64,000 nucleotides of DNA from Nitrospirota bacterium. GTDB taxonomy: Bacteria > Nitrospirota > Nitrospiria > Nitrospirales > Nitrospiraceae. Positions 41,566-59,649 of the stretch are shown piece after piece; the stretch's first letter is position 1, and every line of letters begins with the position of its first letter. Under the pieces are notes generated by a model. It worked only from the letters and a program-made list of their open reading frames with translations, did not search any database and was not told the origin of the DNA. Location of the stretch: the NCBI GenBank assembly GCA_040757595.1, contig JBFLWP010000011.1, positions 1-64,000 of the forward strand, read 5' to 3'. A program made the translations under genes and the position numbers.

Positions 41566-44121
41566 ATGTTCCTCCCCTCAATCGCGGCTTTTCTCGTCGG
41601 GCTGGTTCTCGGCGCCTTCCTTCCGTACCTTCCGCTCCTGATCCTCAGTCTGGCCATCCTCGCGTCGGGCGCCTCGACGATCCTCGAACGGGTCGGGCGC
41701 CTCACGGTCCGCCTGGGCGTCCTTCTCTGCGCCAGCCTGGCCGCCGGAGTCCTGTACTGGACGGTCTTTGCCTGGGCGACGGCCGGTTCTCCTCTCGCGG
41801 AGGTGGCCGGGCCTGACCCGGTGCTGGTCGTCGGTCAGGTGGTTGAGCCGGTCCGGTACGCGCCGGACCGCGCCATCGTGGTCCTGGACGTGCGCGGGCT
41901 GCGGAAGGCTGGCCAAGGGGAGGCTGCCGGCGGGGGGCAGCAGGCTCGGGGGCGGGTCCGTTTGACCTGGCGGGAGCCGGACCTGACGCTGAAGCCGGGA
42001 GATTCGGTCTCGTTCACGACCCGCCTTCGTCCGCCGTCCGGCACGGTGAATCCGGGCGGCTTTGACTACGGGGCGTACCTGCGGCGGCAGGGCGTCGACG
42101 CGGTCGCGTTTCTCGCCGGTCCGGGCCAGATCGTGCGACGGCCCGAAGATCCTGCCTCGCTCAGATGGGGGCTCTGGCGGACGAGCGAGGGGTGGAGGGC
42201 GCAAATCCGCCGGGCCGCCATCGCAACGCTCCAGGGGCCGGCCCTCGGCATCTATCTGGGGATCATCGTCGGAGACTCGGGATACCTGACCCAGACGGTG
42301 CGCGATGCCTTCATGGCCACGGGCACCGTTCACATCCTCTCGATCTCCGGATCTCACCTGGGATTGATCGCGTTTCTGTCCTTCTGGATCGTCAAGGGTG
42401 CGTGCCGGTTGCTCCCTGCCTCGTGGTTTCTGGCCTTGACCCGCCGGGTGACGCCGACCAGGTTGGCCGCTGCGCTCACGGCCCTGCCGGTCTCGTTTTA
42501 CACGCTCTTGGCCGGGGCGGAGGTCGCCACGGTCCGCTCCCTGATCATGATTCTGCTGTTCCTGCTCGCTGTCTGGCTCGGCCGCGAAGAGCAACTCGTC
42601 CTGACCCTGGCCTTTGCCGCGCTGATCATCCTGCTCCACGATCCTCGCGCGCTCTTCGACATCTCCTTCCAATTGTCCTACTGCTCCGTGCTCGCCCTGG
42701 CGCTCGTGTTGCGCTGGCGGGTGCGGCGGGACGAGGCCCCGGCTGCCGACTCCTCGGGGACCAGCCGCATGGCCAGGTGGCTGCGCGGATATGGCTGGAT
42801 CACCGGCGGGGTGACGCTGGCTACGGCGCCGCTCGTGGCCTACCATTTTAATCAGGTTGCCTGGCTGGGGCTGGTGGCCAACCTGATCGTGGTGCCGCTG
42901 GCCGGGTTCCTGCTCGTTCCGCTGGGGTTGGGCTCCGCCGTGTGGATCCTGTTGTCGGGGCGGGAGTCGTTGGCGGCCGGATGGCTCAACCAGACGTGCC
43001 TGGATCTCCTCTCCCAGGTCGTCACTTGGATCGCGCGCGTGCCCGGCGCCGAATGGCACGTGGCCTCGCCGGCGATCCCGGCCGTGGCGGCCTTCTACGT
43101 GATGCTGGCTTTGGCTTTGCGAACGGCCGGCAGCCAGACGATCCGGGGGATCAGCACGCTGGGCCTGACTCTGTTGCTCGGTTGGTGGATTTGGTCGCCG
43201 CGCCCTGCGTCGGACGGCGACACGGTACGGGTGGCCTTTTTGGACGTCGGACAAGGGGACGCCTGCGTCCTGGAACTGCCCGACGGTCGGGTGATCCTGA
43301 TCGACGGAGGCGCCGTCCACGAGACGCTGGACATGGGACGGGCTGTGGTCGCGCCATACTTGTGGGACCGCGGGATCAGGTCGCTGGACGCCGTCATCGG
43401 CACGCACCCGCAGCTCGACCATGTGGGAGGCCTCGCCGGGGTCTTGCGTAGCTTCCGGGTGAGCCGGTTCTGGAGCAACGGGGTCCAGCGGAACGAGCCG
43501 TTTTACCGGCGGCTGATGGAAGCGCTCCGCGATCGCGGAGTGTCCGAGCGGGTGGCGGAATCGGGACAGGAGTTCCTCGATGAAGGGCCCTGCCGGATTC
43601 TGGCACTGAACCCGCCGCCACGTTCCGGCGGGAACCTGGTCGTGGAGAGCGGCTCGGCGCTCAACAACCTTTCGATCGTGACGAGACTGGACTGCGGTCC
43701 TCACTCGTTTCTGTTTACCGCCGACGTGGAGGCGGAGGCGCTGGCTCGCTTGCTGGCCCGCCGGGATTCCAGTCGGGCCAGGGTCCTCAAAGTTCCGCAT
43801 CACGGGGCCCGAAGCTCCCTGGACGAGCAGTGGATCGAACGGTCTGGAGCGGAGGTCGCAATCGTCTCGGTCGGAAGCCGCAACCCCTACGGACATCCTG
43901 CCCCAGAGGTGTTGACGGCGTATGAAAAACGGGGCATCCGGATGTATCGGACCGATCGAGATGGAGCGGTGACGGTCGTGGCGAGGCTTTCCTCCTCCCC
44001 GTTTGAGGTTCGTCGGGCCAGAGAGCTGGTTCCCCGGCCAGTACCGGTCAACCGCTCGATGTGGATCGCCGAACGTGAGAATCTGCGCCGGTTCTGGGAG
44101 CAATGGCGGGGAACTATCTGA
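41566..44121 (+). CDS. comEC: DNA internalization competence protein ComEC/Rec2
   Basis: 851 residues. N-terminal membrane segments and DUF4131-type OB domain, a competence domain with many helices (residues about 220-540, beginning ALGIYLGIIVGDSGYLTQTV), and a C-terminal metallo-beta-lactamase domain with VAFLDVGQGDACVLELPDGR near residues 555-574 and GTHPQLDHVGGLAGVLRS near 612-629. It forms the inner-membrane DNA uptake channel with a possible strand-degrading domain. Other com genes are not in the window. Confidence 0.93.
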   Translation: MFLPSIAAFLVGLVLGAFLPYLPLLILSLAILASGASTILERVGRLTVRLGVLLCASLAAGVLYWTVFAWATAGSPLAEVAGPDPVLVVGQVVEPVRYAPDRAIVVLDVRGLRKAGQGEAAGGGQQARGRVRLTWREPDLTLKPGDSVSFTTRLRPPSGTVNPGGFDYGAYLRRQGVDAVAFLAGPGQIVRRPEDPASLRWGLWRTSEGWRAQIRRAAIATLQGPALGIYLGIIVGDSGYLTQTVRDAFMATGTVHILSISGSHLGLIAFLSFWIVKGACRLLPASWFLALTRRVTPTRLAAALTALPVSFYTLLAGAEVATVRSLIMILLFLLAVWLGREEQLVLTLAFAALIILLHDPRALFDISFQLSYCSVLALALVLRWRVRRDEAPAADSSGTSRMARWLRGYGWITGGVTLATAPLVAYHFNQVAWLGLVANLIVVPLAGFLLVPLGLGSAVWILLSGRESLAAGWLNQTCLDLLSQVVTWIARVPGAEWHVASPAIPAVAAFYVMLALALRTAGSQTIRGISTLGLTLLLGWWIWSPRPASDGDTVRVAFLDVGQGDACVLELPDGRVILIDGGAVHETLDMGRAVVAPYLWDRGIRSLDAVIGTHPQLDHVGGLAGVLRSFRVSRFWSNGVQRNEPFYRRLMEALRDRGVSERVAESGQEFLDEGPCRILALNPPPRSGGNLVVESGSALNNLSIVTRLDCGPHSFLFTADVEAEALARLLARRDSSRARVLKVPHHGARSSLDEQWIERSGAEVAIVSVGSRNPYGHPAPEVLTAYEKRGIRMYRTDRDGAVTVVARLSSSPFEVRRARELVPRPVPVNRSMWIAERENLRRFWEQWRGTI

Positions 44122-44146: not shown

Positions 44147-44175
44147 TTGACATCCCTTGGATTCTCTCCCAGAAT
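44147..44175 (+). promoter_or_regulatory. Promoter of the first small membrane protein gene
   Basis: TTGACA (44147-44152), 17-nt spacer, CAGAAT (44170-44175). Leader of about 12 nt with GGAG before the ATG at 44193. Confidence 0.5.
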
Positions 44176-44192: not shown

Positions 44193-44540
44193 ATGCCCAT
44201 GCCAAGGCGGCCAAGGGTCTCCGGCTCGATTCGCAGTAATTGGAAGTTCGCGCTTGGGCTCGTTGGGCTCTGCGCGGCCGTCGCGTTGGGGACCGCGATC
44301 GCGACTCAGGGGTTGGAGACGCTGACCAAGCGTTTCTCCCTGGCTGTCAAGGCGATGGGGAATCCGTCCGCGCTGAGCGCGGAGGAAAAGGCCGAAGTCA
44401 AAAAGATGATTAAGGACAAGCGTTCAGCCAAAGAGCTGTACGACAAAATGTCTCCTGCGGAGCGCGAGCGGGCCAAGCAACAGTTTGACAATCTGAGCGA
44501 GGAGCAGAAGAAACAGTACCGCGAGATGTTTGGCAAATAA
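44193..44540 (+). CDS. Small membrane protein, paralog A
   Basis: 115 residues from ATG 44193 (CGGAGAAA 7 nt upstream). One transmembrane helix (NWKFALGLVGLCAAVALGTA), then a charged helical region (LSAEEKAEVKKMIKDKRSAK, ELYDKMSPAERERAKQQF) and the C-terminal end LSEEQKKQYREMFGK. It is clearly homologous to the protein at 45234, with near-identical membrane segment and C-terminus. Family not recognised. The soluble part looks like a coiled or three-helix adaptor; topology is probably N-in with a cytoplasmic or periplasmic helical tail. Confidence 0.7.
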   Translation: MPMPRRPRVSGSIRSNWKFALGLVGLCAAVALGTAIATQGLETLTKRFSLAVKAMGNPSALSAEEKAEVKKMIKDKRSAKELYDKMSPAERERAKQQFDNLSEEQKKQYREMFGK

Positions 44541-44894
44541 GAGATCTCCCGTACATCTTCACCGGCTGCTCTTGGTTTTCCCGCCTCCTTCCCAGCACAT
44601 TTCGATGGCCTTGCCGGCGTGGGTGCCCCCGCCGTACCGCCGCGCTTGAAATTCGCGTTAGAAGTGTGGCGGCGGTTCTGAACGCGCAATTCTCGGCCGC
44701 CGATTGCCTTCAAAAAGATCCCTCCAACGACAGACGCCATCAATTGCTTCGGGGATGGCTCCCGAAAAGATGCGACCTTTGAGCAAGCGGGGGCATGACA
44801 ATTCCGCATGCTTTTGGAGGGATTTTTGTTTGACGTTCCAGCAGGTTGCGTGTATGGTAAGGGTAATCCTTGCAATCGTGTGAGGTATTACCAC
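44541..44894. other. Intergenic stretch between small membrane protein genes
   Basis: AT-richer than its surroundings. It contains the promoter at 44830 and otherwise no gene or strong repeat that I can support. Confidence 0.45.
44830..44858 (+). promoter_or_regulatory. Candidate promoter of the middle small membrane protein
   Basis: TTGACG (44830-44835), 17-nt spacer, TATGGT (44853-44858), about 37 nt before the proposed GTG start. Confidence 0.45.
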
Positions 44895-45176
44895 GTGATC
44901 CCCTCGAATGCCAAACTGCTCCTGCGACACCCCCTCCCGAGGAGAACCCGCCCCCGGACTCTCTTTGAGAAATTACGTCACTGGAAACGAAAGAATCTCC
45001 GAATTATTTTCCTCGCCTTGTGCCTTTCCACCGTCGTAGCCGTCGGAATCCATTTTGCCAGTATTGTGGGGCGAATATACAGTGGGCTGCTGATTCTTCA
45101 GGCCCGGTATTATGTGCCCAAAGATCACGAGCGCCAGCGCTACAATCTGGAGAAGATTTTACGCCAGGGGCAGTAA
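44895..45176 (+). CDS. Small basic membrane protein between the two paralogs
   Basis: 93 residues if it starts at GTG 44895 (GAGG 9 nt upstream); GTG 44880 is an alternative. A basic N-terminus (RHPLPRRTRPRTLFEKLRHW, then KRKN) precedes one transmembrane helix (LRIIFLALCLSTVVAVGIHF), then a short tail YYVPKDHERQRYNLEKILRQ. The base composition is less GC-rich than in neighbouring genes. It is unlike the flanking paralogs. No family recognised; coding status rests on the membrane segment and open frame. Confidence 0.5.
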   Translation: MIPSNAKLLLRHPLPRRTRPRTLFEKLRHWKRKNLRIIFLALCLSTVVAVGIHFASIVGRIYSGLLILQARYYVPKDHERQRYNLEKILRQGQ

Positions 45177-45233
45177 ATGGGTGCTTTGGCTGCGAGTGCC
45201 AGACCGAAGAACAGTTCTCGCAGGAGCCGTACG

Positions 45234-45575
45234 ATGAGGCGGCACAACAGCTTTTCCAGGGTCGCGAAAGACAACTGGAAGTTCGCCCTTGGGCTCGTCG
45301 GGCTCTGCGCCGTGGTTGGTTTGGGTGTGTCAGTGGCCACGGGAGGGCTTGAGGGAGTCGTCAAGCGCGCCACCCTGGCACTCAGGGCGGTTGAGAATCC
45401 GAACCAGTTGTCGGCTGCCGAAAAGGCCGAAGTCAAGAAGATGGTCAAGGATAGACGCTCTGCAAAGGAAATGTACGACAAGTTGTCTCCCGAGGAAAAG
45501 GAGCGGGCCAAGAACACCTTCAACGCGCTCAGCGAGGAGCAGAAGAAGCAATATCGGGACATGTTTGGCAGATAG
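45234..45575 (+). CDS. Small membrane protein, paralog B
   Basis: 113 residues from ATG 45234 (CAGGAG 7 nt upstream). Transmembrane helix NWKFALGLVGLCAVVGLGVS, then LSAAEKAEVKKMVKDRRSAK, EMYDKLSPEEKERAK and the end LSEEQKKQYRDMFGR. The stop is 1.0 kb from the stop of paralog A, and identity is highest in the membrane segment and last 40 residues, so they are a local duplication around the middle gene. Function unknown. Confidence 0.7.
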   Translation: MRRHNSFSRVAKDNWKFALGLVGLCAVVGLGVSVATGGLEGVVKRATLALRAVENPNQLSAAEKAEVKKMVKDRRSAKEMYDKLSPEEKERAKNTFNALSEEQKKQYRDMFGR

Positions 45576-46089: not shown

Positions 46090-47949
46090 GTGAGCAGACC
46101 GGTTCGCCCGGCGATCTTCTGCCTGCTCGGCATCCTGCTTCTCGGTCCGCACGACGGCTTGGCCCAGACGAAAGGGGCGGAGGCACCTAAGAAGAAGCCC
46201 TCGGCCCAGGCCAAGAAACTGCCTCCTTCGGCCTTGCTTGAGCGGGCGCGCGGATTCGAGTCCCAGCAACGGTACGATCAGGCCGTCGCCGCGTACCGCG
46301 ACTATCTGGTCGTCCGTCCCCAGGACGACGAAGCCCGGACATCGCTGGCGGCCATCCTCACTCAACAAGGAAAACTCGACCAGGCCGCCACGGAGTACGA
46401 GACCGTCCTCTCCCGACATCCCGACTTGATTCCGCCGGCCCTGGCCCTGGCGGCGATCAGGATGCAGCAGCAGAAATTCGCGGCAGCGCAGCGGGCGTAC
46501 GAGCAGGTCCTGCGCCTCGATCCGGCGAATGGGGGAGCACGGCGGGGGCTGGCGGACGCCCTGCGCGCCAGCGGCCGGTCCGCTGAAGCCCTTCTGCACT
46601 ACGAACTCGTGTACCAGGCCACCAACGACCCGGTGATCGCGGATATCATCCGGCAGATCAACGACGAGCTGAAGCAGGCCTTGGGCCCAACTACCAGCCC
46701 CCAGCTCACTCCCGAACAAATCCTGGAGAAGGCGCATGCGGCCGAAGCGGCCCAACAGTATGCGGAAGCCGCGACCGCCTATCGTGAGTATCTGTTCGAA
46801 CGGCCGAACGACGACACGGCCCGTCAGGCTTTCGCGCAAATCCTCGCCTCGGAAGGCTTCTTCACGGAGGCGGTCAAGAACTATGAACGGCTTCTGGCCA
46901 ACCATCCCAACGATGTCGAGTTGCTCCTCGCCTTGGCCAGGCTCTCCATGTGGCAGAAGAAGGCGGGCGCGGCCCGCAGCTATTACGAAGAGGTGCTCCG
47001 TGTCGACCCCCGCAACCTAGAGGCCAAACGCGTGCTGGCGGAGGTCGCCTATTGGGCCCGGGAATACGGGGAGGCGCTGAGCTATTACGACGACATCTAT
47101 GCGGCCACCAGGGACCCGGAGATCGAGAGGCGGATCCGGGAGATCCGCCGGGAATTGCTCCCCTCGCCCCAGGCGATGATCGGGCCCTCCGAACGGGCCC
47201 TCCAGCTCCCGTTTCGCAACTATGTCAAGCTCGGATACAGTCATTACGCCTACACCAATGGAGTGCCGGATGAAAAAAGCGGCCAGTTGGAGCTCGCTCA
47301 CGCCTTCGGAGACCAGACTGCGGTCATCCGCACGGAGCTCATCAACCGCTTCCACCGCGAGGATCTGCTCACGTCTGCCAGTTTCTACAGTCCGCTCTGG
47401 AAGCGCGCCTGGGGCGCCTTCGACGGGTCGTTCGCCGCGAACCCCGCCTTTGTCTCGAATTTTTCCGTCGGCGGACAGTTCTCGCAGGGGCTGGGGCTCT
47501 TCCACGAGTCCCTCTCGTTTCTGGAGACCGGGATCGGCTACCGGCACATGACCTACAGCTACAAGTCCGCGAACACTCCGAATCTCTCCACACCCGCGAT
47601 CGAGGTCGACGTCCTGACCCCGAACGTCACCCTGTACCTGCCCTTCGACTTGTGGCTGACCGAGAAGCTCACCTACGTTCCGCAGACGGGCGCCGCGACC
47701 TTGACCTCCCAGTTGACCTGGAGGCCGGGCGAGCGCGTGCAGGTCTACGCCTCCGGCGCGTTCGGCACCTCCGGCGAGCGGCTCGTCGCCTTCCAGGATT
47801 TCACTCGGGCGGAGACCCGGAGCTACCAGGGGGGCGTTATCTTTCCCATCTGGGGGCAGGTTTCAGGGGAGTTCAACGGCTTCTACGAGGACCGTGGATT
47901 CCTCTACATTCGGCGCGGCGGGTTCTTCAATCTGATTTGGCATTACTAG
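46090..47949 (+). CDS. TPR protein with C-terminal YaiO-like outer-membrane beta-barrel
   Basis: 619 residues from GTG 46090. Signal peptide (VRPAIFCLLGILLLGPHDGL, AQ cleavage), then at least seven TPR-type helices pairs (about residues 50-330, e.g. GFESQQRYDQAVAAYRDYLV and AAEAAQQYAEAATAYREYLF) and from about residue 375 a beta-strand region (NYVKLGYSHYAYTNG ... GGFFNLIWHY ending in Tyr) like YaiO/PelB-type barrels. By analogy it is an outer-membrane scaffold or channel for polysaccharide export. It opens the EPS locus. Confidence 0.82.
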   Translation: MSRPVRPAIFCLLGILLLGPHDGLAQTKGAEAPKKKPSAQAKKLPPSALLERARGFESQQRYDQAVAAYRDYLVVRPQDDEARTSLAAILTQQGKLDQAATEYETVLSRHPDLIPPALALAAIRMQQQKFAAAQRAYEQVLRLDPANGGARRGLADALRASGRSAEALLHYELVYQATNDPVIADIIRQINDELKQALGPTTSPQLTPEQILEKAHAAEAAQQYAEAATAYREYLFERPNDDTARQAFAQILASEGFFTEAVKNYERLLANHPNDVELLLALARLSMWQKKAGAARSYYEEVLRVDPRNLEAKRVLAEVAYWAREYGEALSYYDDIYAATRDPEIERRIREIRRELLPSPQAMIGPSERALQLPFRNYVKLGYSHYAYTNGVPDEKSGQLELAHAFGDQTAVIRTELINRFHREDLLTSASFYSPLWKRAWGAFDGSFAANPAFVSNFSVGGQFSQGLGLFHESLSFLETGIGYRHMTYSYKSANTPNLSTPAIEVDVLTPNVTLYLPFDLWLTEKLTYVPQTGAATLTSQLTWRPGERVQVYASGAFGTSGERLVAFQDFTRAETRSYQGGVIFPIWGQVSGEFNGFYEDRGFLYIRRGGFFNLIWHY

Positions 47950-48295
47950 CCAGGTGGCTGAAAACCCCTTTTGCCGCCGGAGAGACAGCGGATGCGGGAG
48001 ACCGTGGAGAGGGGATCAAGCAATCCACAGGATGTTCAAAAAGGATGCCAATGTTGTTACAGCATGCAAGGCGGGTGTAGGCGTTTCTCCGCCGGCCTGT
48101 TCGCCTCTAAGCGCCATCACGACCCTCTCGCCGTGCGGGCGTTTTCGGCTGGCCGACTGTCCCAATATCCTGGTCCCGCCTCAGGTTCGGTGAGCGCGTT
48201 AAACCGAACCGATCGCTTGAAGTGGTTGACAAATCATGACTTTGACGGCACAATGTGCCACAATTCGGCTCAGGCTATCCACAACGGGCACAGAC
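47950..48295. other. Intergenic region upstream of the ATPase gene
   Basis: Holds the promoter at 48226 and a second copy of the 13-mer GGCTATCCACAAC (48273-48285). The stretch ACAGGATGTTCAAAAAGGAT near 48028 looks like a short repeat remnant but I see only one copy here. No gene supported. Confidence 0.4.
48226..48254 (+). promoter_or_regulatory. Promoter of the ExeA-like ATPase gene
   Basis: TTGACA (48226-48231), 17-nt spacer, CACAAT (48249-48254). Leader of about 35 nt to GTG 48296. Confidence 0.5.
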
Positions 48296-49123
48296 GTGCA
48301 TTACGAATCGTACTGGGGTCTGAAGCTTTCACCCTTTGAGAACGTTCCGGACCCAAAGTTTTATTTTCCTTCCCCGAAGCATGAGGAGGGGCTGCACCGG
48401 CTTCTCTACGGGGTCGAAGCCCGGAAGGGTGCCATTCTGCTGACCGGCGAGATCGGTTGCGGAAAGACCACACTCAGCCGCCAATTCATTCAGCACCTTG
48501 CGCAAGAACGGTATGACACGGCGTTGATCGCCAATCCCTCCATTGATGCGCAGGAGTTTCTCGGCGAGGTCCTGTATCAGCTTGGAATGGCCTCCAATGG
48601 CTCCAAGCTGGACCGGCTGCACCGGCTGAACGAGCACCTGCTCGACAATTTGAGGCAAGGGAAGGACACCATCATCATCGTGGATGAGGCCCAGGCGATC
48701 ACCGACGACACGGTCTTTGAAGAACTCCGCCTGCTCCTGAATTTTCAGCTGAATGACCGGTTTCTTCTCACCCTGATTCTCCTCGGCCAGCCTGAGTTGA
48801 ACGAGCGGCTCAATGCCCTTCCGCAGTTTGCCCAACGCGTGGCCATTCGTTTTCACCTGCCGGCATTCGATCTTCAGGAGACCACGCGATACATTGAGTT
48901 CCGACTCAAAACTGCCGGCGCCGACGCCCGGCCCATATTTTCCTCTGAGGCCGTTGACTTGATCTTCAAGCACTCCGGAGGCATTCCTCGGAACATCAAC
49001 ACCCTGTCGGATCTTTCTCTTCTCACCGGCTGTCTTGAGCGCAAAGCCCAAATCGATGTCACCATCGTCACCCGCGTCGTGGCGGATTTCCGGATAGGAG
49101 ACCGGAGTGGTACGGCTCACTGA
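48296..49123 (+). CDS. ExeA/XrtA-associated-type AAA ATPase
   Basis: 275 residues from GTG 48296; VHYESYWGLKLSPFENVPDP is the classical start of this family. Walker A LTGEIGCGKTTLSRQFI near residue 50, Walker B TIIIVDEAQAI near 126, LLLNFQLNDRFLLTLILLGQ (sensor) near 147-166, and arginine-bearing HSGGIPRNINTLSDLSLL near 228-245. Such ATPases lie in EPS/exosortase loci and secretion operons. It overlaps the HD-GYP gene by 17 nt. No exosortase gene is seen in the window. Confidence 0.88.
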   Translation: MHYESYWGLKLSPFENVPDPKFYFPSPKHEEGLHRLLYGVEARKGAILLTGEIGCGKTTLSRQFIQHLAQERYDTALIANPSIDAQEFLGEVLYQLGMASNGSKLDRLHRLNEHLLDNLRQGKDTIIIVDEAQAITDDTVFEELRLLLNFQLNDRFLLTLILLGQPELNERLNALPQFAQRVAIRFHLPAFDLQETTRYIEFRLKTAGADARPIFSSEAVDLIFKHSGGIPRNINTLSDLSLLTGCLERKAQIDVTIVTRVVADFRIGDRSGTAH

Positions 49124-50327
49124 TCTGATCAGAGGAACCAAGAGCCCTCCCGAGGAGGAGTCAGCGGAAAAGAAGGCCGCCGAAGAAGCGGCTCCCTCCA
49201 AACCCGCCCCTCCGCCGGAGCCGGAAGCTCCACCCGCGATCCAGCTCAAGGCACTCAGGGAGCAGGTCTTACGGGAAGCGGCTGAGGCCCCTCCGCCGCC
49301 GCCACCGCCTCCTCCGGCTGAAGTGCGGAGCGTGGAGTCCCGAACGGCCGCCTGGGCCTTGCCGCAATCAGCCGCGCCAGCACCGGCGCCGGTCGGGACG
49401 GTCTCCTACGAAAGGTCCGTTCCGCCCTCGAAGCCCGAGCCAGCGCCGGGAGTTGATTGGTATGCTCAAGCCGAATCGGTGCTTGAGGCGATCGCCAGGG
49501 CAGTTCGCCAAGGCCGGCCGTTTTCCCTCAGTGACCTCTCGCAAATCGCCAGCGGCCTGGTGACTTCCCTGGCGCAGGACGACCGCCTCCTGGTTCGGGC
49601 GATCTCCCACCAGAGCGGTTCCTCGCTGATCGGGAACATGGTGCATGTCGCGATCTACGCGGTCAAAATCGGCATGGGGATGGCGTATCGCCCGGACGAA
49701 TTGGTCAGGTTGGCGCTGGCCGCGCTGGTGCACGACCTCGGCATGTTCCGTCTGCCCGCGCCCTTGCTGGAGCAACAGGGGCGGTGGTCGCCGGAGCAGA
49801 TCGCGATCATGCAGCGGCATTCACTGCTCGGCGAAGAGCTGTTGAGACAGATGGCGCCGGACCAGCCGTGGCTGGCCGAGGTGGTCGGCCAGGAGCACGA
49901 GCGGGTCAACGGCACAGGCTATCCCCGGAGGCTCCAGGGTCATCAGATCCACGAGTTTGCGTTGGTGATCGGATTGGCGGACATCCTGGACGCCATGCTG
50001 CGATCCAGAGCCAACCGCCAAGCGTTGCTTCCGTACGAGGCGGTTCGGCTCCTCCTTTCCCGGGAAAAAGCCGGATTCCCAACCAAGATCTTTAAGAGCC
50101 TGCTCCAGCAGTTTTCCCTGTTCCCGGTGGGAACGTGGGTCAAATTGACGTCCGGGGAGATCGGCGAAGTCATCCGTTCGAATCCCCGGTTTCCGTTGCG
50201 GCCGGCTGTCCGGGTCATGGTGGACCAGAGCGGTCAGCGGCTGCGTGAGCCGCGTGAGCTCGATTTGAGCAGCTCGCCGCTTGTGCACGTGGCGGAGATC
50301 GTTGATCGGGTGCAAATGGCCTTCTGA
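49107..50327 (+). CDS. HD-GYP-domain protein with Pro-rich N-terminal region
   Basis: 406 residues from GTG 49107. An acidic, Pro/Ala-rich disordered N-terminus (about residues 10-110, including a run of nine prolines) is followed by an HD-GYP-like domain: His in NMVHVAIYAVKIGMG near residue 180, HDLGMFRL near 209, and HERVNGTGYPRRLQGHQIHE near 264. A C-terminal beta domain follows (VGTWVKLTSGEIGEVIRSNP). HD-GYP proteins degrade c-di-GMP or act as its effectors. Direct coupling to the ATPase suggests c-di-GMP-linked control of EPS export; catalysis is not proven. Confidence 0.82.
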   Translation: MVRLTDLIRGTKSPPEEESAEKKAAEEAAPSKPAPPPEPEAPPAIQLKALREQVLREAAEAPPPPPPPPPAEVRSVESRTAAWALPQSAAPAPAPVGTVSYERSVPPSKPEPAPGVDWYAQAESVLEAIARAVRQGRPFSLSDLSQIASGLVTSLAQDDRLLVRAISHQSGSSLIGNMVHVAIYAVKIGMGMAYRPDELVRLALAALVHDLGMFRLPAPLLEQQGRWSPEQIAIMQRHSLLGEELLRQMAPDQPWLAEVVGQEHERVNGTGYPRRLQGHQIHEFALVIGLADILDAMLRSRANRQALLPYEAVRLLLSREKAGFPTKIFKSLLQQFSLFPVGTWVKLTSGEIGEVIRSNPRFPLRPAVRVMVDQSGQRLREPRELDLSSSPLVHVAEIVDRVQMAF

Positions 50328-50581
50328 CCTCCGATTCTGGGAGGGCGAGATCAGACCACAAGCCGTTTCCAGAAGGTTCTTGTTGTGTTGAGAACCGCAG
50401 GAGACCATAGCTTTTCACCTCCTTCCTGGACAATCAGCACGGATTTCTCTCCTCGCCGGTCGGCTGGAGCCGGGGCCGATGCCGACCGCTTCGACAGCCG
50501 AATAGGTCATCCAAGACAGAGGCGCGGAGGACAGGGGATTCGCGTGCGTGTCACGGAACGTTCGAGGTTCTCCTAGGAAAC

Positions 50582-51721
50582 ATGCTTCGACCCCAGACAC
50601 GAGGCTCTCACCGAGGTTTGCGCCGCTCCCTCGTGCGCGTGCTGCTGGCACTCGGGGCGGGTCTGTGGGGCGGGTGTTCGTCGCTGGCCATCACCCCGAA
50701 CAGCCCTCCCGGAGAAGCCCCTCCCGTTTATGAGCTGTCTCCGAGCAATCTCCCGGGAGGGTTGCCGGTTGCCGCGATGCCAAAGACCAGACGGACGGTG
50801 GATCCCAACGACCTGATCGACGCCGGCGATACCTTGGAGGTGATCGTCCGGCGCGGGGCGGGAGAAGAGAAGTACGCCGCGACCGTGCGATCCAACGGCA
50901 CGATCACGGTGGCGTTCACGGACGTGGATGTGAAGGGGCTCACCGAGGCCGAGTCGGAGGCCCGCTTGAACGAGAAACTGGCCGCCGTCATTCGCAACCC
51001 ACGAGTCCAGGTGAGGATCGCGCAGAAGGGGATCACGAGGCCGAAGTTCTTCTACATTCTTGGCGAGGTAAAAAACCCGGGCAAGCTTCCTCTCGATCGA
51101 AACATGACGCTTCTGCAGGCGATCTCGGCCGGCGGTGGACACTCGGAGGTCGCGGATATGAGGAAAGTCGTCACGATCTCCCGTCGCGGCGAGGTGCCGG
51201 TCGTGCGCGTGGCGAACCTCCAGACCGTGCTGGTTTCAGGAGATCTGACCGCCGATATTCCGCTCGAGGACAATGACATCGTGTTTGTCCCGCGAAGCGC
51301 CATCGGCGACTGGAGCGTGTATTACAACAAGGCGCTCCTGCCGGTCTTGAACAGCTTGCTCACCGCGACCAACATCGTGTTCATCAACAAGGTGATGCAG
51401 GACCTGTTCGCCCAAACGACTGGGCCCGGGGTCGCCGTCGGAACCACCTGCTGGGTTGCACGTGTCCTGTACGGGGAACAGGCCTGGCAGACGAACCTGT
51501 TACGCTGGTACATCTGGGGACCGTTTGCCGAGCACTGGTATGGCCGGCTGTTCGGCGATCTCTATATGCGGTACGGACGGGAGGTGGCGGACTTCCTCAA
51601 GCGGCATCCGGGCGCTAAAATGTTAGTCAAACCGTTGTTCGATCGTCTGCTGCAAGAGGCGGTGGAAGCCGTGGGCCAGAAGCAAGCGTCACGCCTCGCG
51701 CCTCGCGCCTCGCGGTCTTGA
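50582..51721 (+). CDS. OPX-type polysaccharide export lipoprotein with Cys-containing C-terminal extension
   Basis: 379 residues. Signal peptide and lipobox LLALGAGLWGGC with the Cys at residue 32. A polysaccharide-export (Wza-like) domain, PNDLIDAGDTLEVIVRRGAG near residues 77-96, then an SLBB domain FFYILGEVKNPGKLPLDRNM near 157-176 and LEDNDIVFVP. After about residue 240 comes an extension absent from Wza: a hydrophobic helix, then TCWVARVLYGEQAWQTNLLR with Cys 290, and GDLYMRYGREVADFLKRHPG. The last residues (SRLAPRASRS) are encoded by a word repeat. It forms the outer-membrane exit of the EPS exporter with the autokinase. Confidence 0.85.
   Translation: MLRPQTRGSHRGLRRSLVRVLLALGAGLWGGCSSLAITPNSPPGEAPPVYELSPSNLPGGLPVAAMPKTRRTVDPNDLIDAGDTLEVIVRRGAGEEKYAATVRSNGTITVAFTDVDVKGLTEAESEARLNEKLAAVIRNPRVQVRIAQKGITRPKFFYILGEVKNPGKLPLDRNMTLLQAISAGGGHSEVADMRKVVTISRRGEVPVVRVANLQTVLVSGDLTADIPLEDNDIVFVPRSAIGDWSVYYNKALLPVLNSLLTATNIVFINKVMQDLFAQTTGPGVAVGTTCWVARVLYGEQAWQTNLLRWYIWGPFAEHWYGRLFGDLYMRYGREVADFLKRHPGAKMLVKPLFDRLLQEAVEAVGQKQASRLAPRASRS
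51692..51720. repeat. CTCGCGCCTCGCGCCTCGCG word repeat inside the opx gene end
   Basis: Three near-tandem copies of CGCCTCG form the last codons and run to the start of the next gene, 1 nt away. Same vocabulary as the right arm at 7095-7119. It seems to have extended the reading frame. Confidence 0.55.
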
Positions 51722-51722
51722 T

Positions 51723-53861
51723 ATGGCCCAATACGATTTGAATCTTGTCGATTTCTGGCTGGTCGTCCGGCGACGGAAGGCGATCATCCTCTTCACGGTC
51801 GTGCTCGTGGCCGTCTTTACGGTGGTCATGCCCTACATGGTCGGGCCCCCGCCGATCTACAAGACATCCTCTCGCGTCAAGTACGAGCGATCCACGACCA
51901 CGGCCGGCCTGTTGCAGGAGTCCGTGTCGGTTGGGGAAGGCAGCGATATCGGGACAGAGGCGGAGGTCATTCGCAGCTTTCCCGTGATGGAGCGTGTCGC
52001 GAAAGGGCTGGATCTCATAGACAAGGAGCTCGATTCCAAGGAGGTCCGCCAAAATCCGGAGTTTTTGGACATTATCTATGGGATTCAGGGGCACATCGAA
52101 GCCTCTCAGGAGGGCAGCACCAACATCCTGAAGATCACCGCCACGGCTTCCGACCCCAAGCTGGCCGAGCGGTACGCCAATCTGACGGCTGAAGCCTATC
52201 GCGAGGAGAACATCTACAACCGGAACCGGCAGGTGATCGAGGCCCGCCGTTTCGTCGAGAGCCAGCTCAAGACCCTCGAGGCCAGTCTCCATGAGTCCGA
52301 GCAGAAGCTCCGGGAGTTCAAGGAGCAGGAGGGCCAGGTCTTCGTGACAGAGGAGGCGAAGCAGGCCCTCGAGCAGCACCAGAAGCTGGAAGCGGAGCAG
52401 GAGCAACTGCTCCGAGTCAAGAAAGAGGTGGAGACCCAGCTTGCGCAGTTGAAAAAGGGAGGGCCCATCGAGACGGCCACCAACCGGGTCTATTCGGACG
52501 AGGTCGAGGCCCTCATCAGCACGCTCAACAAGCGGATGGTGGACCTGACGCAGGAGCGCGACAACCTGCTGATCAACTACACGCCGCAGCACGCGCTGGT
52601 GCGGGAGCTGGACCGCCGGATCCTCAACGTGAAGAACGAGATGATCCGGGAGCTGGAATCCAAGCTCCGCACGATCACGGAGCGGGAACAGGCGATCCGC
52701 GATTCCATCGGCCGATACAAGGAACGGTACCTGAACCTGCCGCAGGCCGCGATCCTGTTGTCCCGGCTGGAGCGGGATGTCATGGTCAACAGCAACCTGT
52801 ACGCGGCCCTCAAGGCGAAGCATCAAGAGTTCCTGATCCGCGGGGCCGAGCAGATCGAGGAGGTGACGATCATCGAGCCGGCGGTTTCCTCGGTCAAGCC
52901 TACCAACGCCCCCAACCTGCCGCTGAACGCGTTTCTCGGCGTGCTGATGGGCACGATGGTCGGCCTCGTGGCCGCCTTCCTGAAGGAATCCTTCGATACC
53001 TCGATCGGGACGATCGAGGAGGTCGAATCTTACCTCAAGGTACCGGTCCTCGGCGTGATCCCGCGTGTGGACCGGAAAGAGATCGAACAGGAGATACAAG
53101 CCGCGTTCAAGGAGAAGTTGGACCGGGAAACGCTGGATCTTTACTGCCACCTGGTCGCCCTGTTCGACCCGCAATCTCCCCTGGCCGAGGGCTACCGGTC
53201 GTTGCGCACGAACATCCAGTTCGCCGGCGGCCTGGAGGGCAGCAAGGTCCTGGCCTTCGTCAGCGCGGGGGCTCAAGAAGGCAAGTCTACCAGCGCGGTC
53301 AACCTGGCCATCGCGCTGGCCCAGGACGGCAAGCGCGTGCTGCTGGTGGATGGCGATCTCCGGAAGCCGACGATCCACGAGCGCCTCGGGCTGGAACAGT
53401 CTCCGGGATTGAGCGAGGTCCTGCTCGGGACCGTGTCCTATCACGAGGCCATCCGGACCGTGACCGACCTCATGCTGGGCAAGCTCGGGGTGGATCAGGT
53501 GATCAACGCCCCGGGCATTGACAACCTGAACATCCTGCCCTCGGGCAAGAGACCGGACAACCCCGCGGAGTTCATGAATTCCCCCCGTTTGAGCGAGCTC
53601 ATCCAGCAGGCGAGGAGCGAGTACGACATCACCATTTTCGACTGCCCGCCGATCTTGCCGGTGACCGACGGGGTGACGCTCGGATCGAAAGTGGACGGGG
53701 TCGTGATGGTCTACCAGGTCGGCCGGGTCGGGCGCAACGCGTTGCGACGAGCGAAGGCCCTCTTGGAGAACGCCAAGGCTACGCTCATCGGCATCGTCTT
53801 GAGCAACGTCAGCGCGGAGCTGACGCCCGACTACGAGATGTACCGCTACAGCTACCGGTAG
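51723..53861 (+). CDS. Wzc-like polysaccharide co-polymerase / tyrosine autokinase
   Basis: 712 residues. N-terminal Wzz-type domain with two transmembrane helices (KAIILFTVVLVAVFTVVMPY near residue 20 and NAFLGVLMGTMVGLVAAFL near 402-420) flanking long coiled coils. C-terminal BY-kinase: Walker A SAGAQEGKSTSAVNLAIALA near 514, Walker A' VLLVDGDLRKPTIHERLGLE near 540, Walker B DITIFDCPPILPVTDG near 636. The end ELTPDYEMYRYSYR holds four tyrosines that fit the autophosphorylation cluster. It controls chain length and export with the OPX protein. Start 2 nt after the opx stop. Confidence 0.93.
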   Translation: MAQYDLNLVDFWLVVRRRKAIILFTVVLVAVFTVVMPYMVGPPPIYKTSSRVKYERSTTTAGLLQESVSVGEGSDIGTEAEVIRSFPVMERVAKGLDLIDKELDSKEVRQNPEFLDIIYGIQGHIEASQEGSTNILKITATASDPKLAERYANLTAEAYREENIYNRNRQVIEARRFVESQLKTLEASLHESEQKLREFKEQEGQVFVTEEAKQALEQHQKLEAEQEQLLRVKKEVETQLAQLKKGGPIETATNRVYSDEVEALISTLNKRMVDLTQERDNLLINYTPQHALVRELDRRILNVKNEMIRELESKLRTITEREQAIRDSIGRYKERYLNLPQAAILLSRLERDVMVNSNLYAALKAKHQEFLIRGAEQIEEVTIIEPAVSSVKPTNAPNLPLNAFLGVLMGTMVGLVAAFLKESFDTSIGTIEEVESYLKVPVLGVIPRVDRKEIEQEIQAAFKEKLDRETLDLYCHLVALFDPQSPLAEGYRSLRTNIQFAGGLEGSKVLAFVSAGAQEGKSTSAVNLAIALAQDGKRVLLVDGDLRKPTIHERLGLEQSPGLSEVLLGTVSYHEAIRTVTDLMLGKLGVDQVINAPGIDNLNILPSGKRPDNPAEFMNSPRLSELIQQARSEYDITIFDCPPILPVTDGVTLGSKVDGVVMVYQVGRVGRNALRRAKALLENAKATLIGIVLSNVSAELTPDYEMYRYSYR

Positions 53862-53891
53862 TCGGGGCCGTATCGGACCAGAGCTTTGCGT

Positions 53892-55361
53892 ATGGACACC
53901 ATTCGCATTGGATTCTTGGAAATGCTGTTGCTCCTTCTCCTGGCCGTGGGGCTCGGCGTCGCCATTACCACCGGCAAGTCCGTGATGCTGCTCGGGATGG
54001 TCATAGGAGCGGCGATCCTGATCGCGGCCTTCCTCTCCACGCCCCTCGGTCTCTACCTGCTCGTCTATTCCATGCTCCTCGGTCCCGAGTTCATCTTCGG
54101 CGGCGAATTGGCCGGTGCGGCGGTCGGCGGGAAGAAGGCGGGCACCGTCGGGCACGGGATGACCCTGCGCATGGACGACTTCCTGCTCGTGATCGTCGGC
54201 CTGATCTGGCTCGTCAAGGCGGCCATCCACAAAGAGGAAGCCCCGTTCAAGCACACGAGACTCAACGGGCCGATCTTCCTCTACGTGGCGGTCTGCGGCG
54301 TGGCCACGGCGATCGGCGTCCTGGTGGGGCGGGTCCGACCCCTGCCGGGCTTCTTCTTCAACCTGAAATACTTCGAATACTTTTTCCTCTATTTCATGGT
54401 GGTCAACGTCGTCAACTCCTGGAAGATGACGAGGGGGCTGGTCAACGCGAGCCTGATCACCTGCTTCTTCGTCTGCCTGTTTGCGCTGGCCCAGGTGCCC
54501 ACCGGCGAGCGGGCCTCGGCTCCCTTCGAGGGGGAGGAGGGGGAGCCCAACACCCTGGGCGGCTATCTGGTCTTCATCATGGCGATCGTGACGGGTCTCC
54601 TGTTGACTCCCGAAGCGGTGAAGAAACGGTGGCCGTACGTGACACTGCTGGTCTTTGGACTGTTCGCGTTGCTGGCTACCCTGTCCCGCTCGTCCTATCT
54701 GGCCGCGATCGTCGTCCTGCTCGTGCTCGTCTTCAAGACCAGCTACAAGCGGCCGCTGCTCTTTTCCCTCGTCCTTCTCATCATCGCCGCCTCACCTTGG
54801 TGGATCCCCGATGTGGTGAAGGAGCGGGTCTTTTTCACCTTTACCCAGTCGCCCAAGGAAGTCGGGCAGGTCAGGATCGGGGGCGTGCGCGTTGACACTT
54901 CGACCTCCGACCGTCTGCGGTCCTGGCAGCAGACGATGAACAACGTCATGGAATCGCCTCTGTTTGGAGCAGGGGTGACCGGCTCTCGATACTTCATGGA
55001 CGCCATGCTCCCGCGCATCCTCACCGAGACGGGGATTTTCGGCTTCGTGGCCTTCAATCTGGTCTTGTGGAACGTCTTCCGGGTCGGGTGGACGAGCTAC
55101 CAAGGATCGAAGAACCCGTACATGCGTGGAGTGGCGTTCGGGTTCCTCCTGGGATTGCTCGGGCTCATGGTCCATTCGCTCGGCTCGAACACCTTCATCA
55201 TCGTCCGGATCATGGAGCCGTTCTGGTTGTTTGCGGGGCTCATTATGAAGGCGCAGATGCTTGAAGAGACCCAGCCCGAGGAGGTCGAGGAGCGGGAGGC
55301 ACTCACCCATGAGGCGCCGGGGCTCAGGGTGGGCTTGGGAATGGGGCGAAGCCTGCGCTGA
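53892..55361 (+). CDS. O-antigen ligase/polymerase-like (Wzy) membrane protein
   Basis: 489 residues with about ten transmembrane segments and a long periplasmic loop region around residues 280-370. ALLATLSRSSYLAAIVVLLV near residues 259-278 and FGAGVTGSRYFMDAMLPRIL near 357-376 are typical of the O-antigen ligase family (conserved Arg before the TM segment and the loop His/Arg-type region). It polymerises or ligates lipid-linked EPS repeats in the periplasm; ligase versus polymerase cannot be told. ATG at 53892 is preferred to TTG 53886. Confidence 0.82.
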   Translation: MDTIRIGFLEMLLLLLLAVGLGVAITTGKSVMLLGMVIGAAILIAAFLSTPLGLYLLVYSMLLGPEFIFGGELAGAAVGGKKAGTVGHGMTLRMDDFLLVIVGLIWLVKAAIHKEEAPFKHTRLNGPIFLYVAVCGVATAIGVLVGRVRPLPGFFFNLKYFEYFFLYFMVVNVVNSWKMTRGLVNASLITCFFVCLFALAQVPTGERASAPFEGEEGEPNTLGGYLVFIMAIVTGLLLTPEAVKKRWPYVTLLVFGLFALLATLSRSSYLAAIVVLLVLVFKTSYKRPLLFSLVLLIIAASPWWIPDVVKERVFFTFTQSPKEVGQVRIGGVRVDTSTSDRLRSWQQTMNNVMESPLFGAGVTGSRYFMDAMLPRILTETGIFGFVAFNLVLWNVFRVGWTSYQGSKNPYMRGVAFGFLLGLLGLMVHSLGSNTFIIVRIMEPFWLFAGLIMKAQMLEETQPEEVEEREALTHEAPGLRVGLGMGRSLR

Positions 55362-56327: not shown

Positions 56328-56983
56328 TGCCGGCCCTCCTGCGACGGTTCTTCACGCTCTTGTTGTACGCCGCCTGGTGGCTCCCGCGACCGCGTCTGGG
56401 ATTTTTTCTGGACCGTCGCCGGTCGCCGACCCACTTGACCAGGTTTGCCATGTACCGGAGGCTGGGCGAGGTGCTGGCCCGACACCCCTGCCGGGGCCGC
56501 GTGCTCTCCGTCAGCGGGCGAGGTCCCATCATTGACATGCTCGGCGGCGAACGGTTGGAGGTCGTGCAGACCGACTATCCGGAGGTGGACATCCATGCCT
56601 TGCCTTATGCCGACGGGACGTTCGACGCCGTGGTCTCCGATCAGGTGCTGGAGCACGTGCGGGACCCGGCCGCCGCCGTGCGAGAGACGATCCGGGTCCT
56701 AGCCCCGGGCGGGCTCCTGATTCACACGAGCTGCTTTTTGAATCCCGTCCACCGGTATCCGGTGGACCTGTGGCGGTTCACGCCGGAAGCTCTGGCTGCG
56801 CTCCTGGGAGAGCATGGGGTGCTCGAATGCGGAGGGTGGGGCAACCGGTCGGCCCTCCTGCTCATGTTCATGGGGGTGGGGTGCCACCTGGTCCCGGAAC
56901 ACCCGGATCATCCGTTGCACCGGATCGCCGTGCACAACGATCCGGCATACCCGATCGTCACCTGGATCGTGGGGCGGAAGTGA
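56327..56983 (+). CDS. SAM-dependent methyltransferase-like protein 2
   Basis: 218 residues from ATG 56327, overlapping the previous stop. Motif I is degenerate (RVLSVSGRGPIIDMLGGERL near residues 47-66), but DGTFDAVVSDQVLEHVRDPA near 95-114 and RVLAPGGLLIHTSCFLNPVH near 124-143 are standard type-11 methyltransferase motifs. A hydrophobic N-terminus (FFTLLLYAAWWLP) may bind the membrane. Substrate unknown. It overlaps the flippase start by GTGA. Confidence 0.78.
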   Translation: MPALLRRFFTLLLYAAWWLPRPRLGFFLDRRRSPTHLTRFAMYRRLGEVLARHPCRGRVLSVSGRGPIIDMLGGERLEVVQTDYPEVDIHALPYADGTFDAVVSDQVLEHVRDPAAAVRETIRVLAPGGLLIHTSCFLNPVHRYPVDLWRFTPEALAALLGEHGVLECGGWGNRSALLLMFMGVGCHLVPEHPDHPLHRIAVHNDPAYPIVTWIVGRK

Positions 56984-58434: not shown

Positions 58435-59649
58435 ATGCGCATCGCCTATCTGGCCCTGGTCGAGATTGATGTCGCCAACGCCTGCCTGGTGCACACCCGC
58501 GAGGTCGCCGAGCAGTTGGCGGCCCTGGGCCATGAGGTGACGTTGATCCTGCCCCAGCCCCTGCGGCCTCAAACCTGGGCCGGGGTTCGGCACGTGTGGA
58601 TCAAGCGGTGGGGGTTCGATCGGCTGCGGCAACTGGCCTTTTCCCTGGCGAGCGCCTGGCGTCTCCTGCTGCTGCACCGGCGTCACCCGTTCGACCTTCT
58701 GTATCTGCGTGAGATGACCTACAGCCCGCTGCTCCCCGCGTTCGTTCGATGGCTCCGGGTGCCGCTGTTCGTCGAGGTCAATGGCTGGCTGTTGGACGAT
58801 CTCCGCCTCACCGGCGCCTCGGCGCGCGAGTTGGGCGCGGTCGAGCGGAGCCAGCGCACCCTGTTCCGGGCGGCGACCGGGGTCCTGGTGAGTACGGCCG
58901 GCAACGCGGAGAAGATCCGGACCCTCTACGGAGTCCCGGCGCAGCGTGTGACCGTGCAGGAATTGGGGACGAACCCGGAGCATTTTTCGTCTGGCGAGAA
59001 GCGGGCCGCTCGGGAGAAGCTCGGCCTGCCCGCGGAGGTGCCGGTCCTCCTGTTCGCTGGCAGCTTCCATCCCCACCATGACCTCGGAACCGTCCTGGAG
59101 GCCTTCGCCGGCCTGGCCGCAGCCGACCCTCGGCCGGTGCTGGTGCTCGTCGGTTACGGTTCCACGTGGAAGTGGTTGCGGGATCGGTGCCGGTCGCCGG
59201 GACTGGCTGGCCGGGTCGTCATGCCGGGCCCCGTGCCCTACGAGCAGATTCCACGGTATTTTCAGGCCGCGGACATCGGTCTCCTGCCGCTCACGCGGGA
59301 GAACATCCGTCAACGCAACGGGTGCGTCACCCTCAAGCTCTGGGACTACATGGCTGCGGGATTGCCGGTCGTGGCGACGGACCTGCCCGGCACGGCCAGC
59401 TACGACCTCCTCAAGGAGAAAGTCCTCGTCGTTCCTCCAGAGGACCCGCAAGCCATGGAACAGGCCTTGCGGCGACTCGTCTCGCAGGAGGAGTTGCGGG
59501 ACAGGCTGGGACGTGAAGGCCGGGACTATGTGCGGGCGCACCGGAGCTGGCGGCAGGCCGCAGAGGAGACCGTCGGTTTCATCAAGAAGCGGCTGGCGGA
59601 GGAATCGGCGGAGGACCGAAGGGAGGCGGCCCGGCCATGTGCGGGATAG
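58435..59649 (+). CDS. Glycosyltransferase family 4 protein A
   Basis: 404 residues. GT-B fold: RIAYLALVEIDVANACLVHT at the N-terminus with an EVAEQLAALGHEVTLILPQP helix-strand, GTNPEHFSSGEKRAAREKLG near 179-198, VPVLLFAGSFHPHHDLGTVL, and the donor-binding QRNGCVTLKLWDYMAAGLPV near 301-320. It adds a sugar to the EPS repeat; donor unknown. The last 13 nt overlap asnB-like gene. Confidence 0.88.
   Translation: MRIAYLALVEIDVANACLVHTREVAEQLAALGHEVTLILPQPLRPQTWAGVRHVWIKRWGFDRLRQLAFSLASAWRLLLLHRRHPFDLLYLREMTYSPLLPAFVRWLRVPLFVEVNGWLLDDLRLTGASARELGAVERSQRTLFRAATGVLVSTAGNAEKIRTLYGVPAQRVTVQELGTNPEHFSSGEKRAAREKLGLPAEVPVLLFAGSFHPHHDLGTVLEAFAGLAAADPRPVLVLVGYGSTWKWLRDRCRSPGLAGRVVMPGPVPYEQIPRYFQAADIGLLPLTRENIRQRNGCVTLKLWDYMAAGLPVVATDLPGTASYDLLKEKVLVVPPEDPQAMEQALRRLVSQEELRDRLGREGRDYVRAHRSWRQAAEETVGFIKKRLAEESAEDRREAARPCAG

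Follow-up and report, generated by a model that had tools for sequence, protein, structure and literature searches.

What do three small genes lying between comEC and a polysaccharide-export (EPS) locus encode, and what does their position say about what they do? The window, that is, the whole 64,000-nucleotide stretch of DNA analysed here, sits on a 123-kb contig of a 3.37 Mb genome, and among the relatives that we fetched, the nearest with a name are metagenome assemblies of Nitrospirota or Nitrospira. We refer to the three genes as A, M and C. These genes, the signals around them and their neighbours are as follows.

41566–44121, plus strand: ComEC (competence/DNA uptake), the upstream neighbour (Pfam Competence, DUF4131 and Lactamase_B; synteny)
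44147–44175, plus strand: promoter-like site of A, TTGACA-17-CAGAAT (motif scan)
44193–44540, plus strand: A, a 115-aa bitopic membrane protein (ORF, hydrophobicity and profile comparison)
44830–44858, plus strand: promoter-like site of M, TTGACG-17-TATGGT (motif scan)
44895–45176, plus strand: M, a 93-aa bitopic protein with a GTG start, a transmembrane (TM) segment at about 37–55 and the tail RYYVPKDHERQRY (ORF and hydrophobicity)
45177–45233, plus strand: possible N-terminal extension of C, from the in-frame ATG at 45177
45234–45575, plus strand: C, a 113-aa paralog of A (ORF and sequence comparison)
46090–47949, plus strand: TPR protein with a YaiO-type C-terminal barrel (TIGR04390, over its cut-off), the first gene on the EPS side
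48236–49123, plus strand: ExeA-type AAA ATPase, the start of the conserved EPS core (TIGR03015-like, below cut-off)
49107–55361, plus strand: the conserved EPS core, with HD-GYP-like, OPX/Wza-like, Wzc-like tyrosine autokinase and Wzy-like polymerase/ligase genes

A and C are true paralogs under purifying selection. The ORF listing confirmed their starts at 44193 and 45234, and an ungapped stretch of 100 residues shows 70% identity between the two proteins, which have the segment NWKFALGLVGLC and the C-terminal end LSEEQKKQYR(E/D)MFG in common. A preliminary description of this DNA had called them duplicated small membrane proteins on the strength of the shared TM segment and C-terminal end, which our comparison bears out. 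Substitution rates over the same 100 residues were dN 0.24 and dS 1.28 (0.30 versus 1.47 over all codons), and likeness at the DNA level is limited to the coding part (72% across approximately 307 bp). In a search of their own genome A and C matched each other with an E-value of 7.6e-44 and no third copy was found, all other matches having E-values of at least 0.008. Each protein has a basic N-terminus, one hydrophobic segment (residues 19–37 in A and 17–35 in C) and a charged C-terminal part. The C-terminal domain had been described as helical. It comprises five helices in all-helical AlphaFold models of low confidence (pLDDT 58.7 and 65.7), and 23 of 78 columns are invariant in an alignment of seven family members, in keeping with that description.

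M is unrelated to A and C: hhalign gave a probability of 8.2% with an overlap of just 20 columns, so that the earlier view of a different protein between the flanking pair holds. The most plausible start of M is the GTG at 44895, which has GAGG approximately 10 nt upstream. Its N-terminus is strongly basic, and it has weak matches elsewhere. The middle gene had also been placed in less GC-rich DNA; M does have the lowest GC content (53%, from a 92-codon slice), yet A (58%) and C (57%) are also below the window average of 65.5%. The basic end of a bitopic protein stays in the cytoplasm (the positive-inside rule), and by this rule the C-termini of A, C and M would all be periplasmic.

Four promoter-like sites were found across the region, compared with a mean of 0.4 in shuffled sequences. 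One of them precedes M, which the preliminary description had credited with a promoter of its own. No terminator-like site was found between 44000 and 46200. The stop codon of M (TAA, 45174–45176) abuts the ATG at 45177, which is in frame with C, and M and C therefore look like an operon; if C instead starts at the ATG at 45234, which has AGGAG just upstream, the gap between them is 57 nt. Judged from the sequence, A looks monocistronic, while M and C are probably co-transcribed as one operon.

No model in Pfam, NCBIfam, PADLOC or PHROGs scored over its cut-off for A, M or C. The earlier statement that no family could be recognised thus stands for library models, but the C-terminal hairpin of A and C appears remotely DUF3106-like and M falls within a scattered TM-tail family (below). 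DUF3106 (PF11304) scored 16.8 bits against A and 15.1 bits against C, under its cut-off of 24.3, and matched six of the seven A/C family members at E ≤ 1 (best E 0.0099), covering model positions of approximately 33–70 out of 104 and not the full repeat array. When profiles were compared using hhalign, the last 38 residues of A/C aligned with the last repeats of Nitrospiraceae DUF3106 proteins (comparison against 12 DUF3106 proteins from the phylum) with a probability of 94.8% and a score of 47.4; controls were far lower (at most 15.3 when columns were shuffled 60 times, at most 35.2 when blocks of seven columns were shuffled 100 times, and 9.7 for the reversed profile). For the domain's first 40 columns the probability was only 2.0%. 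Unlike DUF3106 proteins, A and C carry approximately two repeat units only, have an apparent TM anchor where DUF3106 proteins have a signal-peptide-like start (judged by eye), and have no adjoining sigma factor gene. The curated cut-off does not place them in DUF3106, and the profile similarity suggests membrane-tethered proteins with a DUF3106-like end. Their own genome has no DUF3106 match at E ≤ 0.01.

This resemblance would also suit envelope-stress sensors or chaperones. On that view A and C, as tethered versions of DUF3106 or Spy/CpxP-like LTXXQ proteins, would bind metal or misfolded protein and act through a response of the ECF-sigma type. At one locus (L117, Pfam-confirmed) a gene for an ECF-like sigma factor is upstream of a DUF3106 gene and shares its strand, and ORFs that resemble an ECF-like sigma factor by eye are clustered with DUF3106 genes at five others (L118 and L124–L127). 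LTXXQ (PF07813), the Spy/CpxP family, has L-S/T-x-E-Q/E-K repeats in periplasmic helices that look similar by eye to those of A and C, but only one of the seven members matched it at all, scoring under the cut-off and not significantly (E 0.11). Moreover, just two repeat units are DUF3106-like, and neither the window nor the set of conserved neighbours includes a sigma or anti-sigma gene. We consider a stress-sensing role unlikely.

Other comparisons pointed to no further family. The aRib model matched all seven members (E down to 0.00061), below its cut-off and over approximately 20 residues where shown, and we judged this to be chance. The best match in a sequence search of the PDB had an E-value of 0.018, a fold search with a low-confidence model returned no match at E ≤ 0.001 and is given no weight here, and the one Rfam match (E 0.52) is below the gathering score and outside the A-M-C region. 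Literature searches for DUF3106, alone or with Nitrospira, returned nothing, which does not prove that nothing is in print, and the passages found in PMC1569441 do not mention proteins like A, C or M.

To what extent do A and C occur elsewhere? A seven-member profile searched against 175 Nitrospiraceae genomes (E ≤ 0.001) matched nine, of which seven were counted as carriers: the genome of the window with its two copies, three g19 genomes, two g10 genomes with the gene in full, and one g10 genome (G075) with a 24-residue C-terminal fragment at which the contig ends inside the gene. The two matches set aside, in G017 (overlapping a true DUF3106 gene) and G103 (E 6.5e-4), are both weak and partial. 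Across the phylum 6 of 295 genomes matched, the sixth again being G017 with its DUF3106 overlap. In wider genome contigs a single-protein scan found no relative, and the three loci picked out by a profile scan belong to genomes that the other searches had identified. Within the genomes searched, the family is confined to three Nitrospiraceae genera. Pairs of g19 genes have dN 0.10 and dS 1.04–1.11, and the g10 pair 0.16 and 0.85. The A/C family is rare, lineage-restricted and under purifying selection. The preliminary description had reckoned with homologs that occur alone and widely with a known unrelated function; those found do occur alone, but are not widespread and have no known unrelated function.

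The genomic settings of the family differ between the groups. The g19 genomes (G018, G030 and G038) share with the window the arrangement FolP-GlmM-ComEC-[A/C], but different genes follow; the EPS core is present in all three, away from the A/C gene, and the g19 EPS-core loci that we fetched hold no A/C or M-like genes. In the g10 genomes G009 and G093 the order is [A/C]-ATPase-HD-GYP-OPX-Wzc-Wzy, with the core as in the window. In all three g10 carriers the A/C gene immediately precedes the ATPase gene and shares its strand, the fragment in G075 lying before an ATPase of the same type. The window has both junctions together (ComEC-A-M-C-TPR-ATPase-core), which confirms the earlier placement of these genes between comEC and an EPS locus. 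Both locations, the one behind comEC and the one ahead of the ATPase, may be remnants of a single ancestral junction. The three g19 homologs each have a TTGACA-17-TATAA-type site ending approximately 6 nt before the ATG (L016, L017 and L018, by eye), and a promoter-like site so near the start codon would give an almost leaderless message.

Several further features of the carrier loci were observed. The ATPase gene is split over two frames in G009 (L043) and has an internal TAG in G075 (L039), each either a pseudogene or an assembly error. At L019 and L020 an asparagine-synthase-like gene, 28–31% identical to the gene at 59637 in the window, adjoins the A-type gene on the opposite strand. Between the two are PqqD-like and transglutaminase-like ORFs (by eye), resembling a lasso-peptide cluster.

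The gene directly follows ComEC in the window and in the three g19 genomes, as would be expected if A and C were accessory proteins for ComEC and DNA uptake. In g10, however, it is not by ComEC (contigs C3 for ComEC and C7 for the gene in G009; C86 and C44 in G093), and no A/C-profile match was found near ComEC in the other loci screened. We rejected a partnership with ComEC on the grounds that the g10 carriers have ComEC elsewhere, and regard such a role as highly improbable. In G012 and G014, which lack the A/C family, ComEC is approximately 280 and 820 bp from the ATPase, so that the adjacency of ComEC and EPS genes does not depend on the gene. The 821-bp gap of G014 contains no A/C-like ORF, and an HMM search at maximum sensitivity revealed no new diverged A/C genes by ComEC or the ATPase in 60 fetched loci (L035–L094). 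The gene is also absent from 67 of 74 ATPase-bearing genomes, and loci of this kind can therefore in general do without it.

To compare the histories of the two neighbours we used trees of the ATPase (20 of 30 fetched loci) and of ComEC (19 of 30 fetched loci), both drawn with midpoint rooting. The ATPases of the window's genome, the three g19 genomes and the three g10 genomes formed a clade of seven with support of 92/92, which is below 95; within this tree, from which ordinary g10 ATPases (48–51% identical) were left out, the clade corresponds exactly to the A/C carriers. The ComEC tree joined all three g10 carriers to a further two g10 genomes (100/100), well removed from the window's genome (g1) and g19. 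G075 has a second ATPase, 49% identical, and an export-type locus beside its comEC. As the ATPase clade coincides with the carriers while ComEC places g10 elsewhere, the gene and the EPS locus appear to have entered g10 jointly, and a simple reading is that the export locus was transferred with its A/C gene into a few g10 genomes.

The locus in question contains OPX, a Wzc-like kinase and Wzy together, on the evidence of PF02563/SLBB_2, PF13614/GNVR, eps_fam (over its cut-off) and PF04932; this classifies the neighbourhood and not A and C themselves. The core resembles known OPX/Wzc/Wzy loci in its SLBB/Poly_export protein, Wzc-like autokinase, Wzy_C, ExeA-type ATPase and amidotransferase. A 551-aa protein encoded at 56814 has no library match. 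Several parts of the window between 46090 and 64000 are XrtA/PEP-CTERM-like, yet the genome lacks the exosortase: TIGR02602 (EpsH/XrtA) has no match in it at E ≤ 0.01, and the XrtA-type models scanned were below their cut-offs. We therefore rejected membership of the PEP-CTERM/exosortase (XrtA) systems. A, C and M match none of the models scanned.

M belongs to a scattered Nitrospiraceae TM-tail module that is either fused to CBS-domain proteins or stand-alone. Members have one TM segment followed by a Y-x-P-K/F-D tail, as M does; Y73, P75, K76 and R80 of M are invariant in an alignment of five rows, and some weaker members read YxPFD. The five-row profile gave 21 matches in 19 of 118 genomes, several of them short and weak (E 1e-4 to 1e-7 per genome), so that homology of the weakest is not certain, and their sorting was done partly by reading translations. 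Nine matches are the tails of proteins read as CBS-domain proteins (L013, L014, L015, L100, L102, L103, L104, L105 and L108), a set in which L100 requires a frame change and L105 is without the tail end; Pfam confirmed the CBS reading for L103 only, and L104 has no family at E ≤ 1e-6. Five are small genes 7–37 nt upstream of an asparagine-synthase-like amidotransferase gene in five genera (L107 and L110–L113; amidotransferase Pfam-confirmed in L107 and L112, by eye in L110, L111 and L113). Three follow an mlaA-like gene and share its strand (L101, L106 and L109; Pfam MlaA in L106). One is a second M-like protein in the window's own genome, on contig C22 (L114, 1456–1788), just upstream of another ExeA-type AAA ATPase. 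The others are M itself, one that stands alone (L012/L096) and one unclassified (L115). Two further arrangements were noted: a methyltransferase gene precedes the M-like-amidotransferase pair in L113 (Pfam) and in L107 and L110 (by eye), and in L104 the gene of the possible CBS-tail protein likewise follows an mlaA-like lipoprotein gene in the same orientation.

The preliminary description had treated A, M and C as a unit, proposing a complex of the three products. Such a complex would fit the adjacency and plausible co-transcription of M and C and the bitopic form of all three proteins, but the six other genomes with the family have a single A/C copy and no M beside it (in one of the six the contig ends inside the gene), and M-like proteins also turn up at a distance from genes of the A/C family. 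The unit does not hold up across genomes, and a three-protein complex is improbable.

The explanation that we favour, tentatively, is that A and C are rare Nitrospiraceae accessory proteins, membrane-tethered periplasmic helpers for one clade of polysaccharide-export loci. It draws on the paralogy of A and C, the purifying selection on them, their distribution and co-clustering with the ATPase clade, the DUF3106 resemblance and the M-C adjacency; the topology, the co-transcription, the docking and any effect on export are inferred. The M-like genes that precede amidotransferase genes in five genera also count in its favour. The basic N-terminus of A and C would be cytoplasmic, with one TM anchor and a short helical domain reaching into the periplasm, where the C-terminal hairpin may dock on a periplasmic or inner-membrane part of the export complex. 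Docked in this way, the proteins would help to assemble or regulate the complex. C would be made together with M, a further one-pass anchor whose Y-x-P-K-D tail, in the periplasm, would dock elsewhere than the A/C hairpin.

We hold this explanation no more firmly because much of the same evidence is covered if A and C are general inner-membrane envelope proteins (for example, in quality control), unrelated to ComEC or polysaccharide, whose place is an inherited junction. The g19 genes count against an export helper and for such hitchhiking: they stay by comEC, apart from the EPS core, each with a promoter-like site of its own. The comEC-EPS adjacency is also older than the presence of the A/C gene there and is found without the gene in G012 and G014, so co-occurrence may reflect shared descent of the segment. 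On the other hand, in g10 the gene appears to have arrived together with the EPS locus, separately from ComEC, and it has been kept by selection. We think hitchhiking rather unlikely, if still a serious possibility.

In a broader form of the export-helper explanation, A/C and M would be two new kinds of small bitopic accessory that tether short periplasmic tags, a DUF3106-like hairpin and a Y-x-P-K-D tail, to the export complex. The tail would then serve repeatedly as a tag for docking at the envelope, linking nucleotide sensing in the cytoplasm to the building of the envelope; this extension is doubtful. Should the export-helper explanation be wrong, the family would still be a tidy example of a rare small membrane protein travelling with a polysaccharide locus. 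If it is true, the known parts of Nitrospira-type polysaccharide-export loci would come to include a lineage-specific membrane-tethered accessory, the uncharacterised DUF3106 repeat would have a second setting, anchored in the membrane, and a C-terminal TM tail (Y-x-P-K-D) that recurs in CBS-domain and stand-alone small proteins would be brought to light as a candidate envelope-docking element.
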